From positions 5,522,161 to 5,586,160 of the forward strand of contig RPFO01000079.1 in NCBI GenBank assembly GCA_009746045.1: 64,000 nucleotides of DNA. The letters run 5' to 3'. Position numbers and translations under genes: made by a program. This document shows, one piece after another, positions 34,245-56,118 of the stretch. Position 1 is the stretch's first letter. Each line of letters opens with the position of its first letter. The notes under the pieces were generated by a model that saw nothing but the letters and a program-made list of their open reading frames with translations, did not search any database and was not told the origin of the DNA. The stretch comes from Mesostigma viride. Taxonomy: Eukaryota > Streptophyta > Mesostigmatophyceae > Mesostigmatales > Mesostigmataceae.

Positions 34245-34248
34245 TACG

Positions 34249-34392
34249 AGTTAGCGAGCAGCCAGAACTGTGAGTTCCTGGTCTCTCACGCCACACAACG
34301 GGATGAGCCAAAGGTTGCTGCCTTGCAACTTTGGCTCATCCCGTTGTGTGGCGTGAGAGACCAGGAACTCACAGTTCTGGCTGCTCGCTAAC
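34249..34392. repeat. Palindrome with 72-bp arms made of family C terminal repeat
   Basis: This 144-bp stretch starts AGTTAGCGAGCAGCCAG and ends CTGGCTGCTCGCTAACT; each half is the reverse complement of the other apart from a 17-bp centre. Either arm matches the start of the 279-bp repeat at 39264-39542. The centre, GGTTGCTGCCTTGCAAC, is the reverse complement of the bases at the same place in that repeat. It cuts the RT of the minus-strand copia element after LLDEEL. Confidence 0.93.
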
Positions 34393-36631: not shown

Positions 36632-36675
36632 ACCTTCCCCAAGGGGTGATTGACTATTTACAGGGGATGATGTAG

Positions 36676-37638: not shown

Positions 37639-38056
37639 GTGAGGTCTCGACCCTGGCAGCGCTTCACCGGCTCCACCACAGTGGGTGTCACAGCAACAAC
37701 GCCACTTGGGCCAGCAAGCACAGGGGAGAGCACATCCACATGAGGCCTCTTACCATTGCCGTCAGCGGAGGTGTCCCTCTTACGCTTCTCCACGGCTGGT
37801 TGCCCATTCGCCACCGTTATTGCATCAGATGCCCTAGCGCCCGCGCCTTGCGCGCCTCCTCCACCGAGTCTTCGTGCCGTCTCTTGCTGCCTGGTCTCTT
37901 TCCCCCATCGCCCTCGCTGGCTGGGATCGCCTCCCCCACCAGCTGCTCCTTGTCTTGCCGAGGCTCCTGGCTCGCCCAGCCGGTGCCTCCATCTCGCCCT
38001 TGTCGCCGTCTCCCGGTTTGCCACGAGGCATTATATACAGTGGGATGGCAAAACAA
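37635..38056 (-). CDS. Copia family C short ORF upstream of gag
   Basis: A 129-residue minus frame (38024-37635) is basic and low-complexity at first (MANRETATRARWRHRLGEPG), then reads DAITVANGQPAVEKRKRDTS and ends just at the gag start. Several frames are open here, so the exact product is uncertain. By position it is part of the leader or gag N-terminus. Confidence 0.4.
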
Positions 38057-38659
38057 AACAGGCGATAGACAAGGAAAACAGGCTCAAGCGCTGGTGCTGC
38101 CTGAAGAAGCCGCTGGCTGCTCTCCAGCTACTGCCTCCTCCTCACGCTCCTGCGCTGTGCGTGCCACCGGTGTCCCCACGCGTGGAACTGAGCGGACCTC
38201 CTCCGCGTTGTAAGGACCTAGCACACGGCTCACCGGCCTCCCGGCTGCTGTCTGCTCTACCGGCAGTCTAGGCGCACTGCCACGGCGATACCACTGAAGA
38301 TTTCTGACCCACCGACTACCACCACCTCGCCGGTCGTTCCGCGACCCCGACCAATCTCGCCAAAATCGTGTTCCGGCTCAAAGGGTATGTTTAACTCTGC
38401 CTACGCCGAGCTGAGTAGCCCTCGTTTGTGCCGTCACCCTCGTCAATCTGTTGTGACGACCGGGCTATGATTCCCGTTGGTCGGTCCACGAACTGATCGT
38501 GGAACTCCTCGTCGGAGACGTCTCGACCGGTGATGACTGTCACCGTCGGCCCAGTCGCCCCTGGCCTGCTCTGCAACCTCGGAGTGTCCAAGGTCGACCA
38601 AATCCCCGGCGGACGCGTAGTGATCACCCAGTGATCGGCGTGACCACGCGCCTCTTGGA

Positions 38660-39234
38660 TCAGAATGTTGACCAGGTGCTCACACGTTTGAGCCACCACC
38701 TCGGCCGAATCCCACGGGCTATCGGCCTCGCGCGTCTGCGCGTCCCGTATGTATGATGTGACGCGTCGGTCCCCTCCCCCAGCGAGCTTGTCGCCACCCA
38801 GTGATTATACAATCTGGTTCCACCTAAACAGATGGCCACCAGTTGGCCCAGCGTCTCACGCGCTAAGTCCAGCGCCTGGATGGTTACGTGCCCGCCCTGG
38901 TACGCAACTTCTAAACTGTAGATCAACGAAGCAATTTCGTCGCGAATGGCGACGAGGCGCTCCGTGCAGACCCGTCCGGTTTCCCCTGGCGACGTCGTCG
39001 CCCGAATCCTCATCACCACAGGGTCGTTGGCCGACGGCCCTGCTGCGTTACCGAACACAGCGACCCAACCTCCTTCCGCAAGGCCCCTCGCAACGTAGGC
39101 CGCTTGCACAAATGTAGAAGCGTTGGATTGGTGGGTGTAGGGGTAGAATGCGTTTTCGCGCGCCGGCAACTCTGGAGCTGCTTCGCGCCTGGGAGATGAC
39201 TCAGGTGTCGCAACCCGAGCCTCGGCCGACATGA
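38660..39234 (-). CDS. Copia family C leader ORF
   Basis: ATG at 39234 (MSAEARVATPESSPRREAAP) begins 30 bp inside the terminal repeat at 39264. The middle (LVAIRDEIASLIYSLEVAYQ, then ALDLARETLGQLVAICLGG) resembles in spacing and pattern the family A leader block LIRLYYLAVKQGVPALDM and MYSEARQVAAAM. The two families may therefore share a leader domain, but identity is low and this is only an eye comparison. The function is unknown. From 38660 to 38060 downstream, no clear frame links it to gag. Confidence 0.5.
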
Positions 39235-39263
39235 AACCTTGCAAACGGAAATGCAATAGTACA

Positions 39264-39542
39264 AGTTAGCGAGCAGCCAGAACTGTGAGTTCCTGGTCTC
39301 TCACGCCACACAACGGGATGAGCCAAAGTTGCAAGGCAGCAACCTTTTAACCCGTGCACCAAGCCACGACCACGGTGAGCGGTTCCACGTCCAATGTGGG
39401 AGCCTCGGTTCGTGCTTGCCAAGATAGCTGGTCATCCCCCATGACCAAGCTATATCCTTTGCGTTGTTCCTCGTTCCCATCGGCGTGACGAGGCACGTGC
39501 AGGCAGGCAAGCAAATCCTCAACGTCCACTGGCATCAGTGCA
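39264..39542 (-). repeat. Family C terminal repeat (LTR end), copy 1
   Basis: The 279 bp starting AGTTAGCGAGCAGCCAG match 63722-64000 by eye without difference. On the minus strand the block ends ...GCTCGCTAACT and is followed by TGTACTATTGC and then the leader ATG. That is the same layout as families A and B (LTR end CTAACT, short gap, leader), so it is the 3' part of the 5' LTR of the minus-strand element. The other LTR edge is not seen. Small frames within it are probably not genes. Confidence 0.7.
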
Positions 39543-39902
39543 GAGCCAGGACGAACTGGATTTGCCTAGACTCTGCAACCTAGGAAGTACAGGACCTGTC
39601 ACAAGCCTGCAAGGCCTAGTATCCTTGCAGACCTGTGCCAGTTCCTGTAGTCCACCAGTCACAGGCTGCTGCTCCTCTGGTCTACGTGGACCACAGTCAC
39701 GTGATAGTCAGGCTAAGCCTGTGCAGGCACGGCCTGCCACGTGTCCTGTCCACTATACCAGAGGACTGTACCTTAGTCGGCCACGGACGGCTAGGACTTC
39801 GGGACCTCATATCTTTCTCGTCCCTTGTCTGTTTCAGGCGGTCAGCACGGCGTTGGAAAGGTCTTTCCAAACTGCATCCACTTAGCATATTGGTTGCCCA
39901 AA
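39543..39902 (+). other. 5' region of the gypsy element, possible LTR or leader
   Basis: No coding block is recognised between the family C repeat and the first gag ATG at 39903. It is probably the 5' LTR remainder and untranslated leader of the gypsy element. A matching 3' copy was not found in the window, so this stays an inference from position. Confidence 0.35.
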
Positions 39903-40960
39903 ATGCTAACTGCTGCCCAATTAAGGTGGAGCTTCGCGAGAAGTTCACCTCAGCAGCTAGGCACGGGTGCGACGTTAGAGGAAGCCTATGAGCTCTTCCG
40001 AGCTCATTGTAACACTTATCGTTACGCCTCGGGGTATCCTCTTCGCCATGAGATGGTGATGGATTTTATTCACCTCTTTTTCCATGACCTGACCAAGAAG
40101 AAGGTCCAGGTTTTGGTCCAGCATTACCGAGCGCTCGTGGACCGGTGTCATTGCACGGACATATCTGCATGGTACGTGCTCACGGACATGGGCACACCGG
40201 ATCTCGACTCGATCGATCATCTTCGATGTCGACCCGGCAGAGCAGCTGTGGCAGCAACTGCGGCTGGAGTACCCAGTTGAGCACGTCAAGGCCATCGCGG
40301 AATGGAATGGAGCGTTCACCGTCGCCGAGGGTGAGGATCCGGCTTTCTCCCTTGACCGGCTCCTCGCGTTTGCGGGAAAAGTGCCTGATTATACGCAGAC
40401 CAAGGCTTGCATGCCGATTATGGCGGAGTGCATTGCCCCTGCTGGCCATCGATCTTCCGGAGCTGCCCGGTGGGGAGTGGACTTTGGTGACTCTCTGTGC
40501 AGCATTCAAGCGGCTGCTCAGGAAGCGTGCGGAAGGCGAGAAGGGTATCTCGTCTGAGCTGGCTGAGATGCGCCAGAAGATGGCTGAGATGGAGAAGGTC
40601 ATGGCGGTCAAGGGTGGCCAGCGGCTGCCTGGTGCGGGGCGCGGTGAATATGTCGGCAGTCAGGGTGGTGGCAACGCCGGTCACGGTGGCAGCGGCGGTG
40701 GCGGTCAGGGTGGCAGCGGCGGTGTCAGTCGTGGTGGCGGCGGCAGTGGCTACGGTGGTCGGGGTCGCGGTGGTGGTCGAGGCGGAGGCGGTCGTGCGCC
40801 GACATCGGATGGAGGCGCAGGCCGGGCGTGCAAGGCGCGCTGGGCGCACCCACCCCGTCACGCGGTAAATGTTACCTTTGCGACAAGGATGGGCACCTTA
40901 GTCGCGAGTGTCCAAGCCGTTGCACGAAGCCGCATGGGTCAGACACGAAGTGGCACCTGA
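39903..40960 (+). pseudogene. Gypsy gag (frameshifted)
   Basis: ATG 39903 starts MLTAAQLRWSFARSSPQQLG, and the frame covers a gag-like helical segment (ATLEEAYELFRAHCNTYRYA, MVMDFIHLFFHDLTKKKVQV). A frame change near 40220-40240 leads to another open stretch (DPAEQLWQQLRLEYPVEHVK, then DPAFSLDRLLAFAGKVPDY), and a further change leads to FKRLLRKRAEGEKGISSELA with a coiled coil and a Gly/Arg-rich tail. In the third frame it reaches the zinc knuckle at 40870. It is recognisable as gag of a gypsy-type element, with two or three frameshifts. Confidence 0.65.
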
Positions 40961-42272
40961 TGAACAAGTGTCCAGCCGCCGGCATCAAGACGGTCCACTT
41001 CGCCGAGATGGCGGGCAAGACCGACTCGATGGAAGCCCAGGTGGCTGCCATCAAGCATGGTGAGGAGGCGACGGCGCCCCCCAACCAATTCGCGACAGTG
41101 TACCGGGAGGACCCATTCTGGGCGCCCATGCCGGGTGACGTCGAGATCAACGCTGCGGAGCTAGGCTACCAAAGGCAAGCAGGCACGCAGCCCGCTTTCT
41201 TTTCAGCAGGCACCCATGTTGCCTGCCGGGCAGTTGCCCGCGTCCTTTTCTATATGCCGCTAGCTGGGGTGCAATCTGCTTTTGAGCATGCAAACCCTGC
41301 TGGGCTGGAGCAGCGTAGGCGATTGGCGCCTGTGTACCTAATGCCGTTCATTGTGGACGTACCCATGTTTTCAGCACGGCAGGTGGTCGACACCTTCGGG
41401 CAGAAGGGGGTTGAGTGGCTGGGGTCGGTTGTGTCCGAGATCCAGTTGTTCGCAGATGGGCATGATGTGCGCACCTTGCGCAATTCTGAGTCCGTCACCT
41501 ACGGGCGTCAGCCGGTAGAAGCCGCAGTGCCCGTGGTGCAAGCGGGAGTGGTCAGCACAAGTAGCCAGCAGCGCACTAGTGCAGTTCCCCGGGTTCCCAC
41601 GGTGGTTCCATACCCCAATGGTGAGCCTTCCATAGCGTTCCAAGCAGTTGGAGTCTGTGGAGATGTATGGAGCGACATGGTGACATGTCCGTTGGTTGGC
41701 GCAGTCAAGCTTGATAGCGGTGCTCAGCCGCTAGTCATCAGCATAGACTTGGCCACCATGCTGAACCTGAGCTACGAGAACGGTGGCTTAGTGGAATTAA
41801 GGCCCGTGTCTATGTCCTAGGTTGGCAGGGTCCGGCTAGTAAGCCGTACGCTATGACGGACAACGTGATTTTCAATCCGTTGCGCGCCTCTAGCATGACC
41901 ACCGTGTCCGCGTATGCGCTGGTGGTCAACAAGTGTGGATATTCCGCACTACTCGGGGTGGATGTCCTTGCTCGCGCCATGGTTCAGGTGGACTTTAGGG
42001 CGGAGGAGGCATCTTACATCCCTGATTGGGATGGGGCTGGCCTGAAGCGGGCCAGTGTGCCGGTCTCATGCTTCAGTTCTTCAGCCGGGGCTGCACGCCT
42101 CAACCCTTCAGCGGCTGCGGGCGTGGTGGAGGTCAGCATGGTGGAGGTACGGGCGGCGGGCTCATCGGCGTGGGACAAGCATCGGACGGTGCTGCCTCAG
42201 CCAACGGCGAGCATTGCCAAGATGCGCACGCAGTGGTCCGACGCTGGATGCTGTGACGTCCACGCGGCAGCT
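40828..42272 (+). pseudogene. Gypsy zinc knuckle, linker and retropepsin protease (frameshifted)
   Basis: The frame 40828-41820 opens with CYLCDKDGHLSREC (40870-40911, a perfect CX2CX4HX4C knuckle). It runs through about 250 residues of linker to the protease active site VKLDSGAQPLVIS (Asp at 41713). After a stop at 41820 the frame from 41853 continues the protease with GYSALLGVDVLARAMVQVDF, whose LLGVDVL is the usual C-terminal retropepsin motif. It is followed by a Ser/Ala-rich linker. The reading runs up to CAGCT (42268-42272), where the copia element is inserted, and resumes at 49904. Order in this element: gag, knuckle, protease, DNA methyltransferase, RT. Confidence 0.75.
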
Positions 42273-42753
42273 AGTTAGTCTCCATGCTTTGCTGTAGACT
42301 AAGTCTCAAAGGCATTGTGAATACAACGTATGAATAAGCCTTGTAAACCTACGTTGGTATGTGAATATAAATACCACGTGGGCTATGCAGATAGGAATGC
42401 TAGTCGAGTCGCATACGTTTCCCTAGATAGGTACTTTGGGTACTGGGGTACGTGACAGATGTCAGTACCCAGTATACGTAGTGTCCTGTCATTGGACGGT
42501 ACTAGAGTATCCTAGATAGGGACCGTACTGCAGCGTGCATTGATCTGTGATCACACGATGCAGTGACTAGACTGCTACCTGTCATCGTGCGGCCTCGGGC
42601 CAACGGTCTGCACCCAACGGTCACTGGCGGCGCAGCCAGTGAGAGGAACGTTGATAAAGGGTAAACCTATTTTCTAATAAGCCAAGCAATTCATTGCTCT
42701 CAGCACTCTGTGTTCTCAAGCATTGTACCAAGTCGGTCGTTCGTATTCTAACT
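42273..42753 (+). repeat. 5' LTR of copia family B
   Basis: 481 bp with a TATAAATA box at 42366-42373 and an inverted repeat GGGTACTG...CAGTACCC near 42440-42475. CTAACT ends at 42753 and is followed by TGAATTTTATCTGCTACC, then the leader ATG at 42772. Families A and B share the start of this primer-binding region (TGRATTTT). Confidence 0.95.
42366..42373 (+). promoter_or_regulatory. TATA box in the family B 5' LTR
   Basis: TATAAATA lies about 90 bp into the LTR and is repeated at 49508-49515 in the 3' LTR. It is the only clear TATA box in the LTR and probably directs element transcription. Confidence 0.55.
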
Positions 42754-42771
42754 TGAATTTTATCTGCTACC

Positions 42772-44450
42772 ATGGCTATCATTAACAAGAATGTCGCTAA
42801 GAAGCTTAACTTCAACGAGGATGATGACGGGCAGGATCGGCGGATGCCCAAAGACAACAATCAGAAGCCGGCTGGCGATGCGGCCATTTCAAAGAAAAAG
42901 AAGAAAAACAAAAAGAACAACAATGTCTGCCAGGACGAGGGGACGGCGGCTGCAAGGCCGACCGACCTACCCCCCTCCCCTGAGAAGCCGGAGGACGAGA
43001 CGGCTCCCCCCCGGGGGACCGGCTTACCCTCGACTCCGGCGGCTGCAACAGCCGCAACCACGGCTGGAGCAGCCATGGCTGCGGAGCCCTCGGCGGTCAA
43101 CCCCACTGAGGCTCCCCAGTTCGGCCCTCCGTTGCCGACTATTCGGGAGCTCCTGCCCCGTCAGACGGCTTCGGTGGCGCCGGACGGGGCGATCACGTTT
43201 CGCCCCGCCACGTCTGATCTTCGTGTTCCCTTCGCTCAGGGGCACAATCACATCGAGCTTCAGCTTGGGCGACCTTCGTCTCTTCTTCGCAAGAAGAAGG
43301 ACATGGAAAGCATTAAGCTCGCGCGGGTGGTGCGTAGACCCGTGGAGCCCATCGGAGGACAACAAATGTCCGATGATGAGGTCTCCGATACTGCCAGTCT
43401 TCCCGACGGGGAGACTGAGATAACCTTACCCCAGCGCTCCTGGCGGTCGAGCAGGCCGCGCTGGTGGCTAACGAAGAACGCCGAGCGAGGCAGCGAGACC
43501 GGGAGGTCCGTCGAGAGACGGCCTTTCGGCTCGCCGCTAAGCGGCAGGAATACGAGGAGGAGGCCGCCCGTCGCCTGGCAACCCACCAGGCGATGGCGGC
43601 GGCGTACCGCGAGGCAACTCAGCGGCTACGCGACCTTCTCACCAATGCTGATTATCCGATGGAATACTCGGATGGTCAAGACCTGGCCGAGCTTGCTCGG
43701 TCAGCCCATTTTAAAGCTATGTCCTCCCTAACCCAAGCCAGGGTAACGGAGGCCATCTTGGCCAAGCATGGGGTGGTAGCTGAAGCTGCCCCCCCGCCGG
43801 AAACCACCAAGAAACCCTCTCCTCCCCAACCCTTGCAGTACAAGGAGGGCCTGCTGGCCCTGGGCCGAGGAAGGGCAAAGAGCACGGACTGCCCTGTCCG
43901 GGATGCTCTGATCATGGGAGAACCCCTCCCTGACATTCCTACGGATGAGGCTGCCTTTCAGGCTGCCCTCCGGGAGCATGAGGTACGCAAGGAGATGAAG
44001 CGTCTCAGGAGGAGGCAGCGAGGAGAGCGGCGGCAGACACCCCTGCCCGCCCCTCCACCGCTGGGGCTGGACCCAGTGGGGTTACCCGGACCCCCCGGGC
44101 TCCCCCGGGCCACCACGGCCCCCCTCCCCCTCCCCCACCACCCCAGGTTCGCCCTGTGGGTTGGGGCCCCCTCCCCAACCAGGGGGGGTGGCCAGGACCC
44201 CAGGAGGCCCTGGGGGGAGGTGCAGAGGTGCCCAGGCACCCACCAACCTGCTGAGGCCCCCCCAAGGAGCGGGGATGTCCTGGAACAGCTCGCCATTCTC
44301 CAGGCTCAGCTGGCCTCGTTGCAAGACCAGCAGTTAACAGCTAACCAGCTGCAAACTGTCGAGGGCCTGCGCGCCCTGATGTCGCGGTATGAGCGGGGGA
44401 CCATCAACCTGGACCCCACCCGCCTGCAACAAGCAACCGACGCTTCTTGA
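42772..44450 (+). CDS. Copia family B leader region, two frames
   Basis: The first frame starts at ATG 42772 (MAIINKNVAKKLNFNEDDDG). It carries a Lys/Asn-rich stretch (ISKKKKKNKKNNN, possible nuclear or RNA-binding signal), Pro/Ala-rich sequence and a segment GPPLPTIRELLPRQTASVAP. Near 43430 a one-base shift leads to the second frame, an Arg/Glu-rich coiled coil (LATHQAMAAAYREATQRLRD) followed by PADYPMEYSD-like and Pro-rich sequence, ending ATDAS with TGA at 44448. The gag frame overlaps this stop (TTCTTGAGG) in the minus-one frame. Function is unknown; position matches the leaders of families A and C. Confidence 0.6.
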
Positions 44451-45207
44451 GGGCCAACCCCCCTCTCACAGGTGTGTTTAACCCTCATAAAAAGGAATCC
44501 AAAATCAATATTGCTGGCTTGCCTGAGGGTCACACTGTTGAACAAGCTAAGCAATTTGTTTTTGCTCTGGAGTATGGGATGGAAGGTCTTAACCTTAGAC
44601 ATCAGTTTAAGGCTCTCAGGGCCTCCTCCACATTCCATCAATCATCTCCTGCAATTAGAGCATTGATTCAAACCTATCAGGAACGCACCCTGACACCTGA
44701 AGCAGCCATTGAACAGTGGCCTACCTTTATCACTGATCTGAAACAGCTAGTGCTTACCAATAACCACATGGAAGCAGTAGAACGTTTCAACTGGCTTGCT
44801 GCATATAAGGTGAACAAGAATAACCTCTCTGGGGATGCAAAAACATACAGGGTAATGATTGAGAAAGACCTTGAGCTTCTCAAGCTCCAACCAAGGTATC
44901 TCATCCACACCTGGCTAACAAAAGCTAATTTGCAACCTTCTGTCCTGGCTACCCTGCTTACAGGCCTCAAGTCCCTCTGGGACAACTTCAGAGCTGCCAT
45001 GCTCTATATCGAGGAGGCAGTGGACCCCCTGGGTACTGGCAACCCCCAGGCCCAGGACCCCAAGGTCCAGGGTGTCCAAGGCCACAAACGCAAGGGGCAG
45101 GCCAGCCAGGGGGGGCACCCAAGACCCACAAGTCCTCCCACCAAGGGGGCAGTGGCTCTCAGGGGCGTGGCAACACGTGGCACCGTGTGCCCCTGCATGG
45201 CAACCCC

Positions 45208-45238
<31 letters not shown>

Positions 45239-45537
45239 GGTCCCAGCAGGGCAACAATAACAACAGGTCCCAACAGGGCCAAAACAACAACAACAACAGG
45301 TCCCAGCAGGGCCAGAACCGGTCCCAGCAGGGAAACAACAACAACAACAACAACAACCAACCTGGAAACCCTGGCCATAAGGTGCCTGAGGTGCTTCCAG
45401 AGGGCACGCACGGCACAACTGCCCCAACAACGACTCCCTGGCCAACGTGGATCTCTGCCCGGGTTGCTGGCACGCACGTCATCCCCTGGGACCTCCAGGC
45501 AGCCGTTGCAACAGGCCTCGCTACCAAATCAATGTGA
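44447..45537 (+). CDS. Copia family B gag: capsid, Asn/Gln-rich linker, zinc knuckle
   Basis: The capsid part begins near RANPPLTGVFNPHKKE and contains LPEGHTVEQAKQFVFALEY, FKALRASSTFHQSSPAIRAL and LQPSVLATLLTGLKSLWDNF. It matches the family A capsid at 3217-2519 along its length. The linker is coded by CAA/AAC repeats (45206-45360), read as poly-Thr, poly-Asn or poly-Gln depending on frame. The zinc knuckle begins CLRCFQR at 45385 or so and finishes HARHNC in another frame, so the frame change to pol falls inside the knuckle. A second Cys/His cluster follows (LCPGCWHARH). Confidence 0.75.
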
Positions 45538-45539
45538 GT

Positions 45540-46886
45540 TCTCTCACCTTGTACTCTGAGGATGATGATCTCATTACCATTGGGGATGGCAACCAGGGCA
45601 TAATTGATTTTGAGGCAGCAACCTTACTGTCCTCCCAACACCCTGTTCTGGAACCTTACATAAAAGCACTAACCCCTACTGTTGACAACTCCATAGATAT
45701 CAAGGAGCTTGCTCATCAGCTGCACCTAGCCATGGGTCATGAAACAGTGGCTGAGGAACTGGCCAGACGGCTGGGGGGTAGTAGCATGGGAAAACAACTC
45801 AGGAATGCAGTAAAACTGGCTAGACAACACTGTCAAGAATGTCAGTTCAATAGCCCCAAACCTCAAAAATGGCATACTGCAACTCCTTCCACCAATAGGG
45901 GCATGATAGTGGGGGATGTGATGCACATCAACAAAGATGTCCAACCCTACCTGATCCTAAAAGACTCATGGTCCAGGTTCACAGTAATGGAACCCCTACC
46001 TGGCATGTCTGCAGGGCAGCTACGTGTTGCACTCATGATTGCTTTACCCAGATTCTACCCAGTTGACAGAATTTTGCTTGATCAACAATTTTCTTGTCTG
46101 ACTGACCTGGAAGGGTGTGAAGCAATAGAGATTGCTGGGCTGGAAGATCATGAGGGTCAGGGGGTCATTGAAAGAACCATCAGATCTGTCAAAACCCTAC
46201 TAGCCAAAAATCCTTCCAAGGATGCTACTTCAGGGGTCTATTGTGACAGGGCACTCTGGTGTCATGAAATGTGCACAACCCTAAACATGAGACCTGTCTT
46301 GCATGCCACGTGGGGTGAAGTAATCCCAGCAGGCCTGCAGGCAGGTGTATATCCCCCAGAGGTGATAGCACTGTACAACACTGCACGTGCACAAACCTCA
46401 GCAAAACTGGCAGAAAAAGATAAAACCCATTCCAGGCCAGTATTCCAAAAAGGTGATCAAGTTCTCTATTACAAGGAAAACAGCTTTGGTAAGGTTGGAA
46501 CTTGGCTAGGTCCAGTTACCATCCGTGGATTTACCAAAAACAGCAAGACCGTGGAGGTCAAGCACAATATCAATGGGAAGCGTCACAGGGTGAGCTGTCA
46601 TAGAATTAAGAAGTATTATTCTCCCATGGCAGACGTGCCTGGGGAAGAGTCTTTAAGCATGGACTCACTACTTCTATCTGGCAACTCCAGCATGCCCAGC
46701 AGTAGCTCTGAGCCACCAATTACTGCTGTTGACAGCACCACAGCACCCTCTGTGAACCCTTCCACCCTCAGTGAAGCCAGGCCCACTTCACAACCTGGGG
46801 ATTGCTTAACCAGGCACGAGGTAGCTGGGTTGGAAGCATTAGCTCAGCCCCAAGGCACCAAATTGTCTGCCAACCTCCCGCTCTGA
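45540..46886 (+). CDS. Copia family B integrase
   Basis: The frame (open from 45447) includes the zinc domain ELAHQLHLAMGHETVAEE with QHCQEC, a complete HHCC site. The catalytic core has DVMHINKD, LLDQQFSCLTDLEG and DHEGQGVIERTIRSVKTL, supplying Asp, Asp and Glu. The C-terminal part (KGDQVLYYKENSFGKVGTWL, then HRVSCHRIKKYY) resembles the SH3-like end of retroviral integrases. The frame ends LSANLPL at TGA 46884-46886. The next ORF overlaps by a one-base shift (CTCTGAGG). No protease lies between the zinc knuckle and the integrase; only about 70 residues separate them. Confidence 0.85.
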   Translation, partial: SLTLYSEDDDLITIGDGNQGIIDFEAATLLSSQHPVLEPYIKALTPTVDNSIDIKELAHQLHLAMGHETVAEELARRLGGSSMGKQLRNAVKLARQHCQECQFNSPKPQKWHTATPSTNRGMIVGDVMHINKDVQPYLILKDSWSRFTVMEPLPGMSAGQLRVALMIALPRFYPVDRILLDQQFSCLTDLEGCEAIEIAGLEDHEGQGVIERTIRSVKTLLAKNPSKDATSGVYCDRALWCHEMCTTLNMRPVLHATWGEVIPAGLQAGVYPPEVIALYNTARAQTSAKLAEKDKTHSRPVFQKGDQVLYYKENSFGKVGTWLGPVTIRGFTKNSKTVEVKHNINGKRHRVSCHRIKKYYSPMADVPGEESLSMDSLLLSGNSSMPSSSSEPPITAVDSTTAPSVNPSTLSEARPTSQPGDCLTRHEVAGLEALAQPQGTKLSANLPL

Positions 46887-46893
46887 GGTCAAA

Positions 46894-48330
46894 TTGGCAG
46901 TCGCCTTGCAAGCATTACACAGGTCACATAAGCAACAAGCTGCTGTGGCCGCAGGGTTGGCAAAAGTCTCAGCTGTGTGCACTAGTCAGGACCCCTGGAC
47001 CCTGGCAATAGACACTCAGGCACAGGTCAGTGTGATCAGTGCACAAGCCATCCCTGGTCTTGAGATTGCACCTTCATTTTGGGCACGGGTGCAGGATTTC
47101 TCAGGCCAAAGCTCACTGGATGTAGTGGGACAAGTGATGCTCCCTATACTTGGTATTCAGACACCCTTCCAGGTGGTGGAGGGGTACTCTGGTAACACCT
47201 TGTTGGGGGAACCTTTTGTATCCTATCCTGGGGTGCTTATCTCAGCTAATGAGCTCAGTGTCACAGGGGTGGGTGCAGTTCCTCTGGACCACTTTAAAAT
47301 CCCTCTCTCCAGTATTGTCCCTGGTATGGATGCTGTCATCAAGGCAGTCAACACTCAGTATGCACCAGGGGAGATCCCTGATCTGGACAAGTTAGTGCAC
47401 AGCCAGTTCCTCCATCCCTCAGCCTTTGGGCTGGGTAAGTGGGACATAGCCATGCACTCACCCCACCAAATCTCCCACGTCATACAAGAATGCAAAACAC
47501 AAAAAGGGTTTACCAAGTGGCTGATGGCCATTGTCCACCAAGCCAGGCAGGAATGGGTCCTGCCCAACCCCAAAAACCCTCAATACAAACCGCCTGTCAC
47601 CCCTTCATGGGACGTGCCAGAGGGAGCCAAAAAGCTCAGATTAAAATTTGTTCTCAAACAAAAACCACAAAAAGTGGGCTCCCCAATCTTCCATGCCAGA
47701 CCATGTGTCACAGAATTAAAGGGGACATCCACACTGCCAAAAGGGGAAACATACACACCTGGGCTGCAACAAACCTCACTCAGGATCATGCTCTCCCTAT
47801 TCCTCCACAACCTCAATGCAGGCCAAGACTATGTCTGCAAAGCCACTGATATTAAAAGGGCCTTCCTCAGGGGGGACCCAGAAAAGGCTGAATCTGTGTG
47901 GAAAGGGAAGGTGTACGTGGTAGACACCCCAGCTGTGTGGAAACCTTACATTGATGAGCCCCACCTTATCATCAACATTGGGGTGGAAGGGCTTGTCAGT
48001 GCCCCAAAAATTTTCAGAGACTCAGCAGAGGAAGTATTCAAAAAGCTCAAGGCCACGTATGATGACCTGGACCCATGCTTTTTTGTTGTACCCACCCCCT
48101 CTGGACTGCTGTTCTTTGTGTGGCATGGAGATGACCAACTCATTTGTGGGCCTAGAGCTGAGGTGGAAACCTTTATTCAGCAGGTCCAGGAATCATATGA
48201 GATTGGCAAACAGGTGGAATTGAGCACAACCCCCATCCAGTTCTGTGGCATCATGTTGCAGCTGCACAGGCAGCCAGATCAATGGGTCTGCTCTCTCTCT
48301 CCTCCTGCAGAATATATCAAGATTGTCTAG
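46894..48330 (+). CDS. Copia family B protease-like domain and reverse transcriptase
   Basis: Residues about 35-150 are retropepsin-like: LAIDTQAQVSVISAQAIPG at the active site, SLDVVGQVMLPILGIQTPFQ in the body and NTLLGEPFVSYPGV at the end. The Gly of the usual DTG is Gln. RT follows: LRLKFVLKQKPQKVGSPIFH, then LQQTSLRIMLSLFLHNLNAG, the first catalytic Asp in CKATDIKRAFLRG, and LLFFVWHGDDQLICG with the catalytic Asp pair (WHGDD in place of the usual YVDD). The frame stops at 48330 in the RT thumb. So the order is integrase, protease-like, RT, as in the family C copy at 34-36 kb. Confidence 0.8.
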   Translation: MAVALQALHRSHKQQAAVAAGLAKVSAVCTSQDPWTLAIDTQAQVSVISAQAIPGLEIAPSFWARVQDFSGQSSLDVVGQVMLPILGIQTPFQVVEGYSGNTLLGEPFVSYPGVLISANELSVTGVGAVPLDHFKIPLSSIVPGMDAVIKAVNTQYAPGEIPDLDKLVHSQFLHPSAFGLGKWDIAMHSPHQISHVIQECKTQKGFTKWLMAIVHQARQEWVLPNPKNPQYKPPVTPSWDVPEGAKKLRLKFVLKQKPQKVGSPIFHARPCVTELKGTSTLPKGETYTPGLQQTSLRIMLSLFLHNLNAGQDYVCKATDIKRAFLRGDPEKAESVWKGKVYVVDTPAVWKPYIDEPHLIINIGVEGLVSAPKIFRDSAEEVFKKLKATYDDLDPCFFVVPTPSGLLFFVWHGDDQLICGPRAEVETFIQQVQESYEIGKQVELSTTPIQFCGIMLQLHRQPDQWVCSLSPPAEYIKIV

Positions 48331-49048
48331 ATCTGCTGCATCACACTGCCTCCCCTTACACATGTGTGCCACTGTTCAGGGCAAACTGGGGTGGTGGTCA
48401 GCCATCTGTGGGGCTCCCTTAGCTGTCATCAGCAGGGTCACCCATGATGTTCTAGTCAAATCAAATGCAGTCACATCAGGAAGTTGATCCATGACTGCCC
48501 CCCCTCATCCTCCATGGCCTGAATCTGATGGAAGACATCCACATCCAAGTGTCATGGACAGCTCCATGGAGAGCAGAACAATCAATCAGATGGGGGCACG
48601 GGAATCAGGGCTGTTTTTTCTCACCAACAGGTCAGATTACATGTCCCTCACTTCCTGGTACAGCAGGCTACACCGCAGAAAACCTGGCAGCAGCAACTCA
48701 GCTGAATGTCGTGCTGTGGTGTCTGCTGCATTGCATGCTCGTTCCCTGCAGCACATGCTCACCTGGCTACAAACCCAGGCAGGCAGCACATGCAATGTCA
48801 TCTCACATCTCTATACTGACAGCCAATCTGTGATCAGTTTTCTAACCAAGAAATCTGTTCTGCTGCTGTCCACACTGACTGGATTGGGTGATCCTCAAAC
48901 AGGAGGCCACCTATTTTTCCAGCTGGACTCATGTGGATGATGAGGACAACCCAGCAGACGCTCTAACGAAGCTGCGGGATGCTGCTGGCCAACAGTACCA
49001 GCTCCTCTTTCAGAACATGAACCCCTATGATATCAGAGTCAGTGTTTG
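48331..49048 (+). pseudogene. Copia family B RT end and RNase H (frameshifted)
   Basis: RT end sequence continues in another frame (SRSAASHCLPLHMCATVQGK). RNase H follows in a third frame (48491-48940) with AECRAVVSAALHARSLQHML and LYTDSQSVISFL, holding the Glu and an Asp of the active site. The conserved copia tail DNPADALTKLRDAAGQQY lies in yet another frame ending at TGA 49046-49048. At least three frame changes occur in 700 bp. Confidence 0.7.
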
Positions 49049-49414
49049 AATAAATGACTGGCCATAGCACAGTACACAACCACCACACCCCCTTACCACA
49101 GCGATAGCTGCTGGGCGCCATAAAATTCAACACATTCGTTGTGGGGTGTGAGTGCTGGCTAGGTCAGATTTGTATCCATTTGCAGCTTGAGGACACAAGC
49201 TTTGTATCCATTTACTTAATCAGTACTGGCCAAACCAGCCAGCTGTGTACACCTTATTTAATGTGCAATATAACACCTGGCCAGAACAGCCAGCTGTAAC
49301 CAACCTGGCTCAACCAGCCATGTCTCTTTTGTACCCCTAATCAACTTAAAAACAATAACAATAATGTTGGGGGTGCAGACCTGCATTAAGAAATAAATAA
49401 TAAAACAATACTGG
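49049..49414 (+). other. 3' untranslated region of copia family B
   Basis: There is no coding block. A short diverged repeat, CTGGCCA(A/G)AACAGCCAGCTGT, occurs about three times (49220-49320). The last bases before the LTR (AATAATAAAACAATACTGG) stand where a polypurine tract is expected; they are A-rich but not a pure purine run. Confidence 0.5.
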
Positions 49415-49898
49415 AGTTAGTCTCCATGCTTTGCTGTAGACTAAGTCTCAAAGGCATTGTGAATACAACGTATGAATAAGCCTTGTAAACCTACGTTGGT
49501 ATGTGAATATAAATACCACGTGGGCTATGCAGATAGGAATGCTAGTCGAGTCGCATACGTTTCCCTAGATAGGTACTTTGGGTACTGGGGTACGTGACAG
49601 ATGTCAGTACCCAGTATACGTAGTGTCCTGTCATTGGACGGTACTAGAGTATCCTAGATAGGGACCGTACTGCAGCGTGCATTGATCTCATGTGATCACA
49701 CGATGCAGTGACTAGACTGCTACCTGTCATCGTGCGGCCTCGGGCCAACGGTCTGCACCCAACGGTCACTGGCGGCGCAGCCAGTGAGAGGAACGTTGAT
49801 AAAGGGTAAACCTATTTTCTAATAAGCCAAGCAATTCATTGCTCTCAGCACTCTGTGTTCTCAAGCATTGTACCAAGTCGGTCGTTCGTATTCTAACT
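49415..49898 (+). repeat. 3' LTR of copia family B
   Basis: 484 bp, same as the 5' LTR apart from CAT inserted near 49689. It ends CTAACT at 49898 and is followed by the target duplication CAGCT. Confidence 0.95.
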
Positions 49899-49903
49899 CA
49901 GCT

Positions 49904-50673
49904 GGCTATGCGCAAGCGGGTGACTGAAGCCGTTGTCACCATTCCTCAGATGGCCAGCCATGGCCTCACTTTGGTGCAACCGGGTGTCTCGGAGGCCCAA
50001 GGTAATTTTTCTGCTGCAATCTTACCGCAGGCCCCTGATTTTGCCAAGGGTGCGGTAGTGTTGGAACTGTTTGCGGGGATCGGAGGGGGCATTGCAGGCT
50101 TTTTGGCCGCAGGCGGCGTGTGCCGTAAACTCATCGCGGTAGAGCCATCGCACAAGGCGCGTCAGGTGTACTTCAGTCACTGTAGCGTGTTGTCGCGAGA
50201 GTACGTATCCCGCGCAGTTTCCGCCATCAGCATGGCGTGACCCGTTTGGGGAATGTCCTCAAGATATCCGAGCCATCGGTGAGGTGCAGGTGCAGCAGTT
50301 GTTGCGCAGGCATCATGCCATCGACTTGGTAATTGCGGGTTGGGAGTGCCAGGGCCTGAGCCATGCAGGCAGGGCAAGGGCGGGGGCTATAGCCGATCCG
50401 CGTAGCGCACTGTTCTGGGAACTGTTGCGTGTGGTGGGACTGTTGCAGTGGCGTCAGCCCGGCCCATCCGCCTGCGTATCTGTTTGAGAACGTTGTGGCG
50501 GGTGACAGCCCACATCAGGCGGTGCGGGAGGACTGGGCTAAAATCGTGGCACTTCTGGGGGAGCCCATCGTGTGTGACAACGCAGGGCTGGGTGGGCTCA
50601 CTCATCGTTTGCGTGCCTAGCTATTGGACCAACGTGGCGTGTGCGACCGGTGTGCAGGCGGTCTTGGGGGCCG
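49904..50673 (+). pseudogene. C5-cytosine DNA methyltransferase domain within a gypsy element (frameshifted)
   Basis: C5 methyltransferases transfer a methyl group from S-adenosylmethionine to cytosine in DNA. Motif I is ELFAGIGGGIAGFLAAGG (50067 on), followed by the expected acidic residue in LIAVEPSHKARQVY. Motif IV is VIAGWECQGLSHAGRA with the catalytic Cys at 50347-50349; the usual Pro before it is Glu. DPRSALFWELLRVV follows, as in the family. Motif VI is YLFENVVAG (about 50482) and motif VIII HRLR then YWTN (50603-50632). Frames change near 50190-50235, 50455 and 50615. When the copia insertion is ignored, the frame enters from the protease linker at CAGCT. A LINE interrupts it at 50673; the same frame resumes after 52764 (VARQHPSVSAEVALPSHLV), probably the target-recognition part. 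The domain is not intact as read. Confidence 0.85.
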
Positions 50674-51081
50674 TAATTAATTAATTAATAAGCACGTCAC
50701 TGCGTCACGTGGGTGCCAATACAGAGTAAAGGAACCTTCAACCCTATATACACAGCGAGAAGGAGGGAGGGCGCCCTAGCTTCTCTCACTGCCGCAGGTG
50801 GGCTGCCAGGCCACAGAGCGCTCTCTCCACGGCATCGGGCGCAACACTGTGGGTGCAATACAACCAGTGCAATACCATAGGTAGGCTGACGCATAGCTTA
50901 TGCTACAAATGTGAGGTGGGCTCAAGACGTCGGCTAATTAAGGCGCAAGCTGATGGCCACAAGGTGCCAGAGCTAATTGAAGGTACTATAACGCTGTGCG
51001 CTAATATCGTTTCAAGTGCTGTAATGCCTATAAGCTATCCCATCATTGATTGCCCCCATCTAGACAACGAGCTGGAGTGCT

Positions 51082-52561
51082 CTATCCCGGGGAAGCCCGG
51101 GGGGGCTTCCACAGTTTCTTGTTGACATAGAGGTCCCCGCCCCGCCAGTACACTTGGGGCTTCTCGGGGTTGGTCTTGTGGCGGATGTAGTCGGGCCACT
51201 GCTGATTGCGGCGTTGCTGCTGCTGGGCTGGCGTCAGGTCGTCGTCAAGCGACCAGGAGGTGTCCACTAGCTTCTTGCGGCGAGAGAGGAACCGAACTCG
51301 GGCTGCATGTGATGTCGCTGAAGGTGAGGACCACTGGAGGGGGCCCAGCCTTGGCCCGTGGATGGGGCAGGCGGTAGGCGCCCTGCAGTATCGCACCTAG
51401 CTGGCAGCTGCATGCACGCCAAGAGCTGACAGTTTCTTCAGCTCGTCGAGAAGAGAGTCTGGGGTCTCCTCCGGCAGCATGTCGAAGCGCCTGAGGATGA
51501 CCCGGCAGCGGCGACGGTCGCGGTCAGCGGCCTCGCGGCGCGTGTCTTCCAGCTCCTGGAGCTTGGTGGTGATGGCGGTCGTGGTAGACTGATGCCTGGC
51601 TCTTGAGCAGGTCCGCCCAGGAGGCGCGAGTCGAGGGGTCATCGCTAGCCCTACCAGCAGGTTGGGCGGCGATGGTGGCCGTTCGCTCGGCGATCTCGGG
51701 GACCTGCGTGGCCAGGGCGTCTACCTTGGCAGCAACTGCCTCAAGTTTCACGGTGCCTTGGCCGACTCGGCCTTCCACCTGGTTAAGGCGGGTGGTCACA
51801 GTGGCTGTGGCCTCGGAAACTTTGGTGGCAATGTGCTCTTGCGTAGCAGTAAACTGAGGCTGGAGCTTAAGTGCAACTCTGGCTTCAATGTTGTTGACCT
51901 AATTGGCCGAGAGAGTGTTGAGTGGGCCGTCAGGCGCGTTCAGGGCGGCGAGCTGCTCAGCCATCGGCGCCAGCTGCTCCGCCACTGACTGCAGCTCGGA
52001 TGGAGTCCGTGCTGGGGGAGGTGCCGCTCTGCGGGGATGCTGCAGCTGCTGTGGCTGCCCGTCTGCGCTCATGCAGGAGGCTCCTGAGGCCAGCGTAGCC
52101 AATCTGGGTGATGCATCCTGGGCGTCGCAGCGCAGGTAGCTGCACATGATGACTACCTTCAAGTACGCCTCCGGTTCTTGAAGCAGCCATTCCCAGGCGG
52201 GCTTGGTGACCTTGTCGCCAGGGGTAGGCAGGAAAAGTTCGTCATGGCGGGCCAGGAACTTGATAACATCGTCACATTGTTCCTTCGTGAGCGTAAAGAT
52301 TTCCAAGATGCAAAAATCCCGCTGGCCGGCGCCGAAGCGGCGGACGTCCCATTTGGTATGGGAAGTTCGGGTTTTCTTGGGAATGGGCGACGAATTTGGC
52401 GTAGAGCACTGCGTCGAGGGAGGCAGACCGTGGGGGAGAGCTTCGATCAGCGCGAAAAGGTTGGCGTCCGCAGGAGTTGATGTCGCACGTGCTGCTGTCG
52501 ACGGGAATGCCGACGACAGCTCAAAATGTTTGTCAAGGCTGCGTTTTGGTGGCATTTGCAA
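51082..52561 (-). pseudogene. LINE ORF1 protein (copy 1), broken
   Basis: It starts MQMPPKRSLDKHFELSSAFP at 52561 or 52555. The first frame (220 residues) ends NTLSAN at TAG 51899. A coiled coil continues in the same frame (VEGRVGQGTVKLEAVAAKVD), then after a shift DRDRRRCRVILRRFDMLPEE, another TAG near 51397, and finally FLSRRKKLVDTSWSLDDDLT with YWRGGDLYVNKK. The last block is the conserved end of LINE ORF1 RNA-binding proteins (a basic helix, DDLTPAQQQQRR and a WRG motif). Both TAG codons stand where CAG would fit, and both recur in copy 2. Confidence 0.7.
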
Positions 52562-52597
52562 AATACTGCGTTACAGCCGTAACCGATTATTATACTA

Positions 52598-52626
52598 GCA
52601 GATGCGTCTTGAAAAGACGCATCTGC
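52598..52626 (-). promoter_or_regulatory. Conserved hairpin in LINE 5' leader
   Basis: GCAGATGCGTCTT and AAGACGCATCTGC are perfect 13-bp complements around a GAA loop. It lies about 40 bp upstream of ORF1. The same hairpin is at 62404-62431 in copy 2, and a reduced version (CGTC...AAAAGACG) stands near 60391 in the leader of the neighbouring full LINE. Confidence 0.7.
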
Positions 52627-52763
52627 TGCAAGTAGCCTGACTGAATTTGGGGCTCGGACGCAAAAGTTATGAGCTCCGCCGTCAGCCATGTCCGCTCGTG
52701 GCTCGTGGCTCGTGGCTCGTGGCTCGTGGCACGTAAAACAACAAAAAGACAATCACAACCGTA

Positions 52764-53080
52764 GCATTGAAGTGCAGCATCCGAGTGTGTCTGCGGAGGT
52801 AGCATTGCCTTCCCACCTAGTCACGCAGAAGGTGCATGGATAGCGAGGATCGCCCACCGTATGCACGTGTCAACCGGGTCGGGAGCCCCATGTGCGTGGG
52901 GGCCGTAGCAAGGCAGCATCCGAGTGTGTCTGCGGAGGTAGCATTGCCTTCCCACCTAGTCACGCAGAAGGTGGATAGCGAGGATCGCCCACCGTATGCA
53001 CGCGTCAACCGGGTCGGGAGCCCCATGTGTGCACTGCCGATCGACCCTGGTCAGTTACCAAGGGTCGACAGCATACCGTG
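52764..53080 (+). pseudogene. Gypsy sequence after the methyltransferase, with a 140-bp tandem duplication
   Basis: A block of about 140 bp (GCAGCATCCGAGTGTGTCTG through GGGAGCCCCATGTG) is repeated directly at 52774 and 52914. It encodes QHPSVSAEVALPSHLVTQKV then SEDRPPYARVNRVGSPMC in the frame that continues the methyltransferase. The second copy runs on to LPIDPGQLPRVDSIP and stops near 53079. The first copy has a 4-bp insertion (GTGCATGG) that shifts its frame. Confidence 0.65.
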
Positions 53081-53930
53081 ATCGGGGTAAGGGTCTCGTT
53101 TGGGACACTACCACCGGTCTGTTGGTGCAGCCACCCGCAGAATTTCGTGAGGCCAGCATGGGTTTTCATGTCGGGGCCTCGGCGCTGCCGGGTGTGCTCG
53201 AGAGTGAGCGCTGGTCTTTGATAGGCCAGGCTATGTCGGTGTTGCAGGTCGGGTATGTGCTGCTTGCATCGATCGGTTGCCGTGCGCCAGTCTGGGGGGG
53301 CGTCCCCAGCCAATCCGCCTCAGGTTGAGGCGCGCGCAGCCAAACTGAAGCGCCCTGCAGCGACGGGGACTTCATCAGCATGGGGGTGGCGTCTGCGACA
53401 GGTGTGGACTATCATTCTCATGACCGCCCTGCTGACCAGCACCGTGCTGGCCGGCGAGCCCACGTGCTGCATCGGGTAATACACCGTGCGGCACGTACGC
53501 GAGGCTCCGGCGGTGGGTGTCACACCAGGTGTGGCAGCCTTTTCCTTGTTCCACAACGATGCGGCTAGGGCGCCGCATCTTGAGGCACATGCGGTAGCTG
53601 TGGGTGATCCCGCGGATACGCACCCCAGGGCTATTGGCGAACACCTTTCTGATGCGCAGCGCTCAGCCATGCTAAAGTGGCTAGACACTGCAAGGGTGGC
53701 CTTCGCTTTCACAAGTGATGAACTGGGGTGTTTCAATGGTGGTGGGACCATGCGTGTTCCATTGGACACTGACACTCCTTTGTTCCGACGCCAGCATCGC
53801 CTGAGTCAGGCCGAGTTGGATTTTGTAGCCGAGCAATGCAAGGAGTTAGAGGATGCCGGTATCATCAGGCAATCTTCCTCCAAAATCTCCGGCGCCACCA
53901 TGGCGGCTGGCCACTCAGCTTAATTTGGTA
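53081..53930 (+). pseudogene. Gypsy reverse transcriptase N-terminal part, truncated
   Basis: After about 400 bp of linker-like sequence, the frame 53486-53923 has LSDAQRSAMLKWLDTARVAF, then VPLDTDTPLFRRQHRLSQAE and CKELEDAGIIRQSSS. This is the usual start of gypsy RT, before its catalytic motifs. It breaks off at about 53900-53930, beside an imperfect palindrome (53914-53948), where minus-strand gypsy sequence begins. None of the RT catalytic residues remain on this strand. Confidence 0.7.
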
Positions 53931-54033
53931 AAACCCAAATGAGCTGAGCTGACGTGCCTGCCTTGACTGCATGCCCTGTGGGGTGGGCGAGGACCTGTCC
54001 CATGATTCCCCCCCTTGCTGGTGACCGGCCCCA

Positions 54034-54436
54034 TCACGAAGACAGCGATCGTACCAAGACAAGGGCAGCGGTGACCGCAGTCAAGCTGCGGGAGGTAAAC
54101 TGCGCAGCGGTGCACACTGGACAAAACCAATCCCCCTCCGGAATGCTGGTGACCACTGGCTGCAAACACTGCATGTGCCAACCACAGTTACACTGATCAC
54201 ACAATAACATGGACTCCGCCTGATCGACGTACCCGGTGACAAACCTGACACTGGGCGTCCTTGACTCGGCAAGATGTGTGCGGTTGGAGGTCGTGGACCA
54301 AATTGGGCAGCGAGCAGGGACTGAGATTGCTGAGGTTGTCAGTCGTACGGCTCCCGTTGGCGCCCTCCAAAATTGCCACTCCCGATGGTTTGATAGCCAC
54401 AATGCGCAAAATGGTGGGCCCTGCCTCCACTGGCAT
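54034..54436 (-). pseudogene. PHD finger at the end of a gypsy integrase (frameshifted)
   Basis: The minus strand reads KDAQCQVCHR in one frame, then, after a frame change, MLLCDQCNCGWHMQCLQP and SIPEGDWFCPVC (54201-54112). Together these give the C4HC3 pattern of a PHD finger, including the Trp two residues before the last Cys pair. PHD fingers read histone H3 tails. In gypsy chromoviruses a chromodomain at this place guides integration; a PHD finger could do the same here. That role is inference. Confidence 0.75.
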
Positions 54437-54559
54437 CCAAAGTGTGCTTCAGCTGAGTGCGCAGGAAAACATACTGCCCGGCCTGGCCTAAACCGCAGCT
54501 GGCGAGCCATGTATGCGCCCCCCCGGCGCTGAGCGTAGCGCAGGGAGTCCCTGTGCTGA

Positions 54560-55514
54560 GCAATGAACAAGTTGTTCATCGCGATGGGCATGACCTTAAT
54601 TCTTAAAAGTCTCTGCCCTGGCCAGCACCTCAACCAAAAATTGCTGAGCGTTGTCGAAGGCCATGGGTTCGGGGTGGGCAACCTGTGCCTCCGTAGGCAA
54701 AAGAGGATTACGCCCGAACAGAAGGAAATAAGGGGAGAAGGTAGCGAGAGACTCCTGGGGAGACATGCGATAACCCATGGCAATCCATGCCAACTCGCGA
54801 TCCCACCTGGCCGACTCCGGCACCTGCAGGCTCCACTTGCGCAGCGCCTGCTTGACGGTCTGCACAAATCTCTCAGCCAAACCATGCATTGGCCTGAGGA
54901 TGCTCCCGAGAAGTGCGACGGTGATCAATAAGACATCCATCCAGCAACTCCTGGAACTCACCCCTGAACTCACCACCCTGGTCCGTGACTACCTCCGCGG
55001 GAGCCCCAAACCTGCATGGTTATTATGATGTCCGCAAAATGCTTCGCTGTGGTAGCGGCATGCTTGTCAGCAATGGGGATCAACTCAACCCATTTGCTAA
55101 AGCTCTCCACGCATACCATGACATAGAGGTTGCCGTCAGGGCTCGATCAGACTCCTGAAACGGCCCGCACAGATCGACGTGCCAGCGATAAAACAAGCCC
55201 TTGATGGGAAGCAACATCAGCTCCTTGGCACCATGATCTGCGCTAAAGTTAGCCTTGCATGGTTCGAGCACACGGGACACAGCTCGGGCCACTACCTGGG
55301 CCACCGTGTGTCGCATGTTATTCCACCAATAGCTGGTCCGTACAAGGCTGAGCGTGCGATTGCCACCCAAGTGACCATACCGCTCGTGGTACGCCTGCAC
55401 TATAGCAACGCGCTTGTCAGGCGGTGGGACGACCACCCTACGCTTGCCCAACAGCTTGCACAAAACCCCATCTTCCCAACCATAGGTTGCAGCCCTGTGC
55501 TGCACCCTGTTCAA
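54560..55514 (-). pseudogene. Gypsy integrase (frameshifted)
   Basis: The frame 55514-55080 has the zinc-domain histidines (AYHERYGHLGGNRTLSLVRT) and the first core Asp in FYRWHVDLCGPF. The frame 54976-54596 has the core end with the catalytic Glu in GLAERFVQTVKQALRKW and the typical ELAWIAMGYRMSPQESLATF and YFLLFGRNPLLP. The middle of the core lies in other frames (55020-55080). The PHD finger follows downstream on the minus strand, RNase H upstream. Confidence 0.75.
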
Positions 55515-55646
55515 CTCCGTTGCCTTCTGAGCAGCTAGGAGTCCAATCGACTGGAGTAGGAGTCAAGACAGCACCCTGCACTTGCTCCAACACTCGACCA
55601 TCTAGCCAGATATCAGCGGTGTAGCAATCAGCAAGAGAGCTACGCG

Positions 55647-56118
55647 CTATAAGAGAGCCTGCACAGCGATCAGCTGCTGCAGAGAAGGATCAATGTCAAA
55701 GGACAGAGACCTACCCTCTTCCATAGCGCACACAGCTTTGGATGGCGTGAATGGCGACGGCCGCACCGGGTCGTCGCTGGTGCCAAAGTCCGCCACAGAG
55801 CACTCGACACTGCGCCACCACGCCTCCTCCTCATCGTCGGCCGCATACCCAGCAGCGTTCACAAAGACCACAGAACCAGACGAGCCCTCGGCACCCATGG
55901 CCCGGGCTCCAGTGTGGTCAACAGTGGTAGGCATGGCGTATCGGGATAGCACATCGGCGTTGACATGGTCCTTGCCGGGTCGATGCACAATGGTCATGTG
56001 GTACTCCTGGATAATCATGGCCCATCGGGCGAGCTTACCCGTCAGGTTGGTGTTGGTCATCAGCCATGCACTGAAGCGGCTGGTGGTCTGTCACCAGAGT
56101 AAACACGCGCCCAAATAA
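55647..56118 (-). pseudogene. Gypsy RNase H end and linker
   Basis: The minus strand begins VFTLVTDHQPLQ at about 56115 and, after a 2-bp frame break, continues NLTGKLARWAMIIQEYHMTI and HRPGKDHVNADVLSRY, the standard gypsy RNase H end. A linker then leads to the integrase. Upstream of about 56118 the sequence is LINE, so this gypsy piece is cut within RNase H. Confidence 0.8.

Follow-up and report, generated by a model that had tools for sequence, protein, structure and literature searches.

Our analysis of a 64,000-nucleotide stretch of the Mesostigma viride genome (contig RPFO01000079.1, positions 5,522,161 to 5,586,160; hereafter the window) revealed the remains of a Ty3/gypsy-type retrotransposon that encodes a C5-cytosine DNA methyltransferase (MTase). 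The window probably contains a dead copy of an M. viride Ty3/gypsy family in which a DNMT3-like MTase is fixed in Pol between protease and reverse transcriptase (RT), with a PHD finger behind the integrase. As read from the sequences, the MTase is encoded in the Pol frame, keeps its motifs in two families that are about 66% identical, and lies inside split terminal repeats. An earlier note on the window had proposed the plus-strand order gag, CCHC knuckle, retropepsin, MTase, linker and RT start, and this order was borne out when the motifs were located.

The methyltransferase as part of Pol

The genome searched for further copies comprised 439.9 Mb in 2,243 contigs. The N-terminal part of the window MTase gave at least 150 matches as query, and a search with the Pfam C5-methylase family gave 127 matches, other methylases included. 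The copies that were fetched encode, in one frame, a CCHC knuckle, a protease (LDSGAQ, LLGVDVL), the MTase, RT, RNaseH, H2C2, integrase and a terminal PHD finger. This Pol frame of 2,074 amino acids (aa) was found at 29 of the 150 listed MTase matches and at 36 of the 150 listed integrase matches. Copies that carry it were termed family B; their gag (615 aa) has a frame of its own, which shares 186 nt with that of Pol. The view of the earlier note that the MTase is part of the polyprotein and not a neighbour is thus confirmed by young copies. The features expected of a Ty3/gypsy Pol, namely an rve integrase, the order RT-RNaseH-integrase and H2C2, were all present when tested on family B. A second family, F2, shows the same domain order distributed over a gag-protease frame of 1,081 aa and a frame of 1,642 aa for MTase, RT, RNaseH, integrase and PHD finger.

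Where the frames overlap in families B and F2, runs of 7 and 9 G occur (L026:8041-8245; L011, minus strand), the shift is -1, and the domain borders concerned are different ones. This suggests programmed frameshifting, or may reflect homopolymer assembly errors. A subfamily A was further distinguished, whose Pol part is 97.9-99.4% identical to copy B1579 (three copies compared) and whose gag differs. Where A and B were compared (L010 and L026 versus L009 and L034), the nearly identical Pol and the different gag were joined near the zinc knuckle; this switch was likely brought about by recombination or a template switch.

The association of MTase and integrase was followed from an integrase query with 1,808 first-look candidates, of which the best 150 matches, each 100% identical, were used. 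These were paired with the 150 listed matches of the window MTase and with 24 of the 139 rows of a second listing, to which a fixed offset was added. A same-strand MTase was present among the matches listed for 122 of the 150 integrases, at about 3.2-3.6 kb upstream in 115 cases and at another distance in 7. The possibility raised by the earlier note, that other copies of the family might lack the domain, was put to the test in this way, and most listed copies carry it. The MTase could also have been a chance neighbour, that is, a host gene or part of another element beside the gypsy relic, and the relic taken by itself would allow this, its MTase being parted from the other pieces by inserts and broken in frame. 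Against this stand the many copies with one open frame, constant spacing and a position inside repeats and target duplications. We rejected this explanation on account of the genomic copies with the MTase in the Pol frame at a fixed distance from the integrase, and give it practically no credence.

Split repeats and joined ends

The ends of the element were examined in ten genomic copies, each as two adjoining stretches. Nine of them showed the layout A1 - open reading frames (ORFs) - B1 - GC - A2 - B2, and the repeat pair was absent in the tenth, A335. The A repeat measures about 1.1-1.3 kb with a within-copy identity of 98.8-99.8%, and the B repeat 136-143 bp with 100% identity in eight of nine copies and 98.6% in one. 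Total length is 10.7-11.2 kb in eight copies and 12.9 kb in F2_777, where about 2 kb interrupts the left A repeat. The elements end in TGTC...GACA and are flanked by 4-bp target duplications in seven of the nine copies (TAGT, AGCT, AGGT, AAAG, AAGG, CTTG and TCTC); in B998 the 4-bp flanks do not match, and the same holds for B1646, where most of the left flank reads N. A junction GACA-GC-TGTC, corresponding to both element ends joined, precedes A2 in all nine copies, and a polypurine-tract-like G-run precedes B1 in the five copies inspected.

Conventional long terminal repeats (LTRs) were considered and rejected, since the sequence behind the right repeat is common to the copies and equals B1. 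The two simple LTRs of identical sequence that are typical for Ty3/gypsy are thus replaced by A1 on the left and B1-A2-B2 on the right. The MTase does lie within the terminal repeats of the element, as the earlier note would require, these being split direct repeats and not LTRs in the conventional sense. No obvious TGG-led tRNA primer site was seen behind A1 by eye, no comparison with tRNAs having been made, and scans of Pol and of the first frames of families B and F2 detected no tyrosine recombinase family.

DIRS/PAT elements possess a tyrosine recombinase and split direct repeats in the arrangement A1-ORFs-B1-A2-B2. The M. viride element shares with them the split direct repeats and the joined-end junction, but differs by a DDE integrase, TGTC...GACA ends and 4-bp duplications in place of a tyrosine recombinase. 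Since the B1-GC-A2 junction represents the element ends head to tail, the analogy suggests replication via a joined-end template as in DIRS/PAT elements, with the DDE integrase performing the insertion.

Class and conservation of the methyltransferase

The MTase is DNMT3-like by profile and fold, and DNMT3 is the closest among the solved C5 MTases; DNMT1 and DNMT5 gave no profile match to solved structures at E 0.01. DNMT3/DRM enzymes are the best profile and fold match, from which the M. viride MTase differs by ECQ versus PCN, its polyprotein context and its unpermuted motif order. DRM methyltransferases have a permuted motif order. Motif IV reads ECQ in both M. viride families, not the PCN of DNMT3. 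In the MTase tree, from which P0023 was omitted because its start was not found by the motif-I search, six ECQ rows (one from Closterium) group together at 91/95, the fork not being starred, and adjoin a PCQ clade with Klebsormidium. The suggestion of the earlier note that ECQ marks a subfamily consequently retains moderate support. P0035, a Klebsormidium nitens fragment that lacks motif IV, joins the PCQ sister clade by a long branch. By eye it shows an MTase followed by an RT-like start; no Pfam family was found in it, and it may or may not be KnitGypsy-Dnmt3 itself (see below). Viral relatives read PCQ in 46 of 46 cases, though the search pattern permitted E. Neither of two possible donors was supported: bacterial rows stand apart in the tree, and the viral relatives reach 25-44% identity, for the most part over partial stretches.

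The catalytic Cys and the motif VI Glu are invariant in an alignment of eight rows, and both M. viride families retain the catalytic Cys, ENV, HRLR and motif X. Amino acid identity between B and F2 amounts to 0.66 for the MTase, 0.67 for the PHD finger, 0.71 for the integrase, 0.81 for RT and 0.89 for RNaseH, compared to 0.43 for the MTase-RT linker. Conservation above the adjoining linker across the distance between B and F2 suggests that the element may need the MTase. A335 and B1579 differ by one nucleotide in 334 MTase codons, which is too few for a ratio of nonsynonymous to synonymous substitutions (dN/dS) and cannot be followed past the first stop of A335.

The relic in the window

The copy in the window is interrupted and partly inverted, with the order gag, CCHC, protease, MTase and RT start on the plus strand, and judging by its sequence it is non-functional. 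Its gypsy pieces are about 95-98% identical to young genomic copies, so that their assembly is not due to chance. It is nearest to subfamily A, since its gag matches three A copies and not family B. The earlier note had placed the element between positions 39903 and 53930, and both borders had to be moved. The 5′ leader with the N-terminal part of gag is located at 32954-34206 (plus strand) and is 97.4% identical to two young copies, where it lies directly upstream of the gag piece that follows. The remainder of gag, the CCHC knuckle (40870-40911), the retropepsin (LDSGAQ at 41710-41727, LLGVDVL at 41949-41969) and the protease-MTase linker are found in broken frames at 39912-42272 on the plus strand, with 94.9-96.2% identity to three young copies. 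The N-terminal part of the MTase (49899-50675, plus strand) contains several frame changes and carries motif I (FAGIGGG, from 50070), motif IV (ECQG, 50344-50355), motif VI (ENV, 50486-50494) and motif VIII (HRLR, 50603-50614; HRLRA to 50617). The C-terminus with motifs IX-X (REASMGF..., IGQAMS) follows at 52897-53283 (Pol residues 746-873), and the MTase-RT linker with the start of gypsy RT at 53284-53882 (Pol residues 869-1078), both on the plus strand. The 3′ part continues inverted on the minus strand at 53880-56127 with the end of RNaseH, integrase, PHD finger and B repeat (53880-54007; B1 in the layout given above), 95.9-96.6% identical to young copies; about 1 kb of RT/RNaseH is missing from the relic. 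Its MTase is spread across several frames and split by an insert, and because of this the relic would be unable to produce the enzyme. The single frame from protease linker into MTase, which the earlier note had read here, is accordingly a property of other genomic copies and not of the relic.

Three inserts were delimited. A copia-like element at 42273-49898 (plus strand; repeats 42273-42753 and 49415-49898) is flanked on both sides by the 5-bp duplication CAGCT, exactly as the earlier note had described; an RVT_2 match within 46894-48327 falls below the curated cut-off of the family. Its repeats end in AGTTAG...CTAACT, not TG...CA. The MTase is split by an insert at 50676-52773, which was called a long interspersed nuclear element (LINE) in the earlier note only, and to which no strand was assigned. 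A clean target duplication is not present; instead, the insert is followed by a tandem duplication of the target of 120-140 bp. A second copy of this 2-kb repeat is located at about 60572-62535, with matched blocks 94-100% alike. A further insert at 34207-39911 (ends AGTTAGC...GCTAACT, duplication GCTGC) separates the 5′ part of the relic from position 39912. Its last 648 bp (39264-39911) recur at 63722-64369, past the end of the window, with 100% identity. The repeat pair 39264-39542 and 63722-64000 was considered as gypsy LTRs and rejected, as the 648-bp repeat stops exactly at the end of this insert.

Possible functions

The likeliest function of the MTase, as we infer it, is methylation of the element's own complementary DNA (cDNA). 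The MTase would be released, or held beside RT, in the particle and would methylate the double-stranded cDNA before or at integration, at CG if DNMT3 is taken as a guide; the PHD finger would anchor the integrase at histone H3. New insertions would be methylated on arrival, resembling host DNA with its 5-methylcytosine (5mC) mostly in CG, and would settle in silent chromatin. This combination of self-methylation around integration and tethering is put forward tentatively, at slightly less than even confidence. The PHD finger is closest to the fingers of BAZ2B, BAZ2A, WSTF and CHD4, and many fingers of this type bind the unmodified H3 tail. Methylation of cDNA by an element-encoded MTase was proposed for DIRS elements in the discussion of de Mendoza et al., whose DIRS enzymes methylate CG in yeast (PMC5890265). 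In M. viride 5mC was found by liquid chromatography-tandem mass spectrometry and bisulfite sequencing, mostly in CG, and LTR retroelements are given as the largest repeat portion with 27.9% (PMC6947507).

Alternatively, the MTase might act in trans, methylating host chromatin or rivals or restraining its own copies and thus permitting coexistence with the host, in which case methylation of its own cDNA would be incidental. An action on chromatin would be in keeping with the high copy number and the PHD reader, and a benefit to the host from slowed retrotransposition is discussed by de Mendoza et al. (PMC5890265). Raised CpG transitions in the relic (20 of 1108 sites versus 23 of 3276 other C/G sites; Fisher p 0.0024) fit methylation of old copies. 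However, transversions at CpG are raised too (12 of 1108 versus 16 of 3276; p 0.047), which renders the signal weak, host enzymes could explain it, and there is no sign that the MTase domain is exported from the particle. The idea of the earlier note that the enzyme affects silencing or rival elements found no support, and we regard an action in trans as doubtful. We consider it rather unlikely that the domain has ceased to methylate DNA and now either has RNA as its substrate or is retained in Pol for structure or for binding nucleic acids. The replacement of PCN/PCQ by ECQ in the six tree rows, with PCQ in all viral relatives, would speak for such a change, but both families have preserved the catalytic Cys, ENV, HRLR and motif X, and a purely structural role would not need conserved catalytic residues.

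Several points weigh against an active MTase as a fixed part of Pol that marks cDNA. Activity on DNA is a prediction, ECQ in place of PCN/PCQ might weaken or alter catalysis, and histone H3 as the target of the PHD finger is guessed from its relatives. In yeast, no methylation by the K. nitens gypsy enzyme was observed; the authors regard this result as inconclusive, as human DNMT3B failed there too (PMC5890265). Synonymous divergence (dS) between B and F2 is saturated, so that the case for selection rests on open frames and conserved amino acids, and copies that are nearly identical do not count as independent. Not every copy is intact, since three tested A-subfamily copies have stops 252-397 codons past the MTase anchor. 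Finally, 28 of the 150 integrase matches had no MTase among the matches listed, 8 of which were sampled. Three of the 28 (C2000:988660, C2111:28168 and C2133:144893) lie inside a full 2,074-aa frame. Among the remaining 25, the 8 loci sampled at the expected MTase position showed other DNA in seven cases (one a copia-like insert; two, L046 and L050, mutually reverse complementary by eye) and N in one. These loci have the look of interrupted or truncated copies; a clean version without MTase was not found among the eight, and no search aimed at MTase-less sister families was completed. Such families are possible, as the first-look candidates in the genome (1,808 for integrase versus 336 for MTase) would fit them.

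Relation to known elements

Capture of a methyltransferase by a retrotransposon has a precedent in KnitGypsy-Dnmt3 of K. nitens (de Mendoza et al. 2018, PMC5890265), which likewise carries a DNMT3-class MTase within the gypsy Pol frame and, according to the legend of Fig. 4 therein, combines DIRS-like repeats with gypsy domains, as does the M. viride element. The latter differs by ECQ and another subclade, by the PHD finger, a word absent from the main text of that paper, and by its at least 150 MTase matches, whereas K. nitens is said there to have fewer copies than Symbiodinium. DNMT3 in a gypsy Pol with DIRS-like repeats is thus already known, going by that report, and the M. viride element is a variant of it. 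Chromodomain or Tudor gypsy elements (e.g. in Ectocarpus, PMC12477816) also bear a C-terminal chromatin reader behind the integrase. The M. viride element differs from these by its PHD finger and MTase. To our knowledge, SymbioDIRS-Dnmt3 and SymbioLINE-Dnmt of dinoflagellates contain no DDE integrase. Both are retrotransposons that encode a DNMT, the former with DIRS-like repeats, using DIRS or LINE machinery in contrast to gypsy in M. viride (PMC5890265).

Methylase-bearing elements are also spoken of in passages of two further papers. Ty3/gypsy and DIRS elements encoding DAM or DCM are mentioned from stramenopiles, red algae, green algae and charophytes in a review (2019, PMC6338049), and a close relative may already have been described in the sources behind that statement. 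For streptophytes and dinoflagellates, DNMT3s are mentioned as occurring in 'LTR Copia and DIRS' elements, with reference to the 2018 paper (PMC12344493, 2025). In the literature searched, which covered titles, abstract openings and passages, no DNMT-bearing retrotransposon was reported from Mesostigma, and the passages of PMC6947507 mention only CMT/DMT orthologues for M. viride. Within the same scope we met neither the Mesostigma families nor a mention of how abundant and young they are, and likewise no ECQ subclade with a Closterium member, no PHD finger and no 4-bp duplications with TGTC...GACA ends. A sequence from the dinoflagellate Prorocentrum lima (EukProt, P0039) matches the M. viride element with 97% identity across 23% of the query and represents contamination or transfer. 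It is conceivable, if improbable, that a gypsy lineage of streptophyte algae (Mesostigma, Closterium) combines joined-end replication and a DDE integrase with PHD finger with an ECQ DNMT3 of altered chemistry or specificity that would methylate cDNA in the particle, every copy thereby carrying its epigenetic mark when it enters the genome.

Two other multi-copy C5-methyltransferases were noted in the genome. One is a 364-aa frame at at least ten places (C35, C47, C64, C79, C340, C389, C815, C1517, C1809 and C1935), seven of the ten in L002-L008 and with a full-length DNA_methylase match in L002 (7.8e-50); its motif reads AGFPCQAF and it falls outside the retroelement clade. The other is a 313-aa frame at at least 17 places. 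Both are possibly borne by other mobile elements.

The 2018 report did not settle why a transposon should bear an enzyme class by which hosts silence transposons. For this question M. viride is a natural test system: its young copies are abundant, near-identical and in many cases intact in frame, its genome is sequenced, bisulfite data are published and 5mC can be detected. In Klebsormidium, copies are fewer and the enzyme was without signal in yeast. The ECQ subclade would represent a second, sequence-defined type of retroelement DNMT, and through the PHD finger a single polyprotein couples a writer of DNA methylation with a reader of chromatin. A gypsy Pol with split repeats, moreover, poses the question of how these elements replicate.

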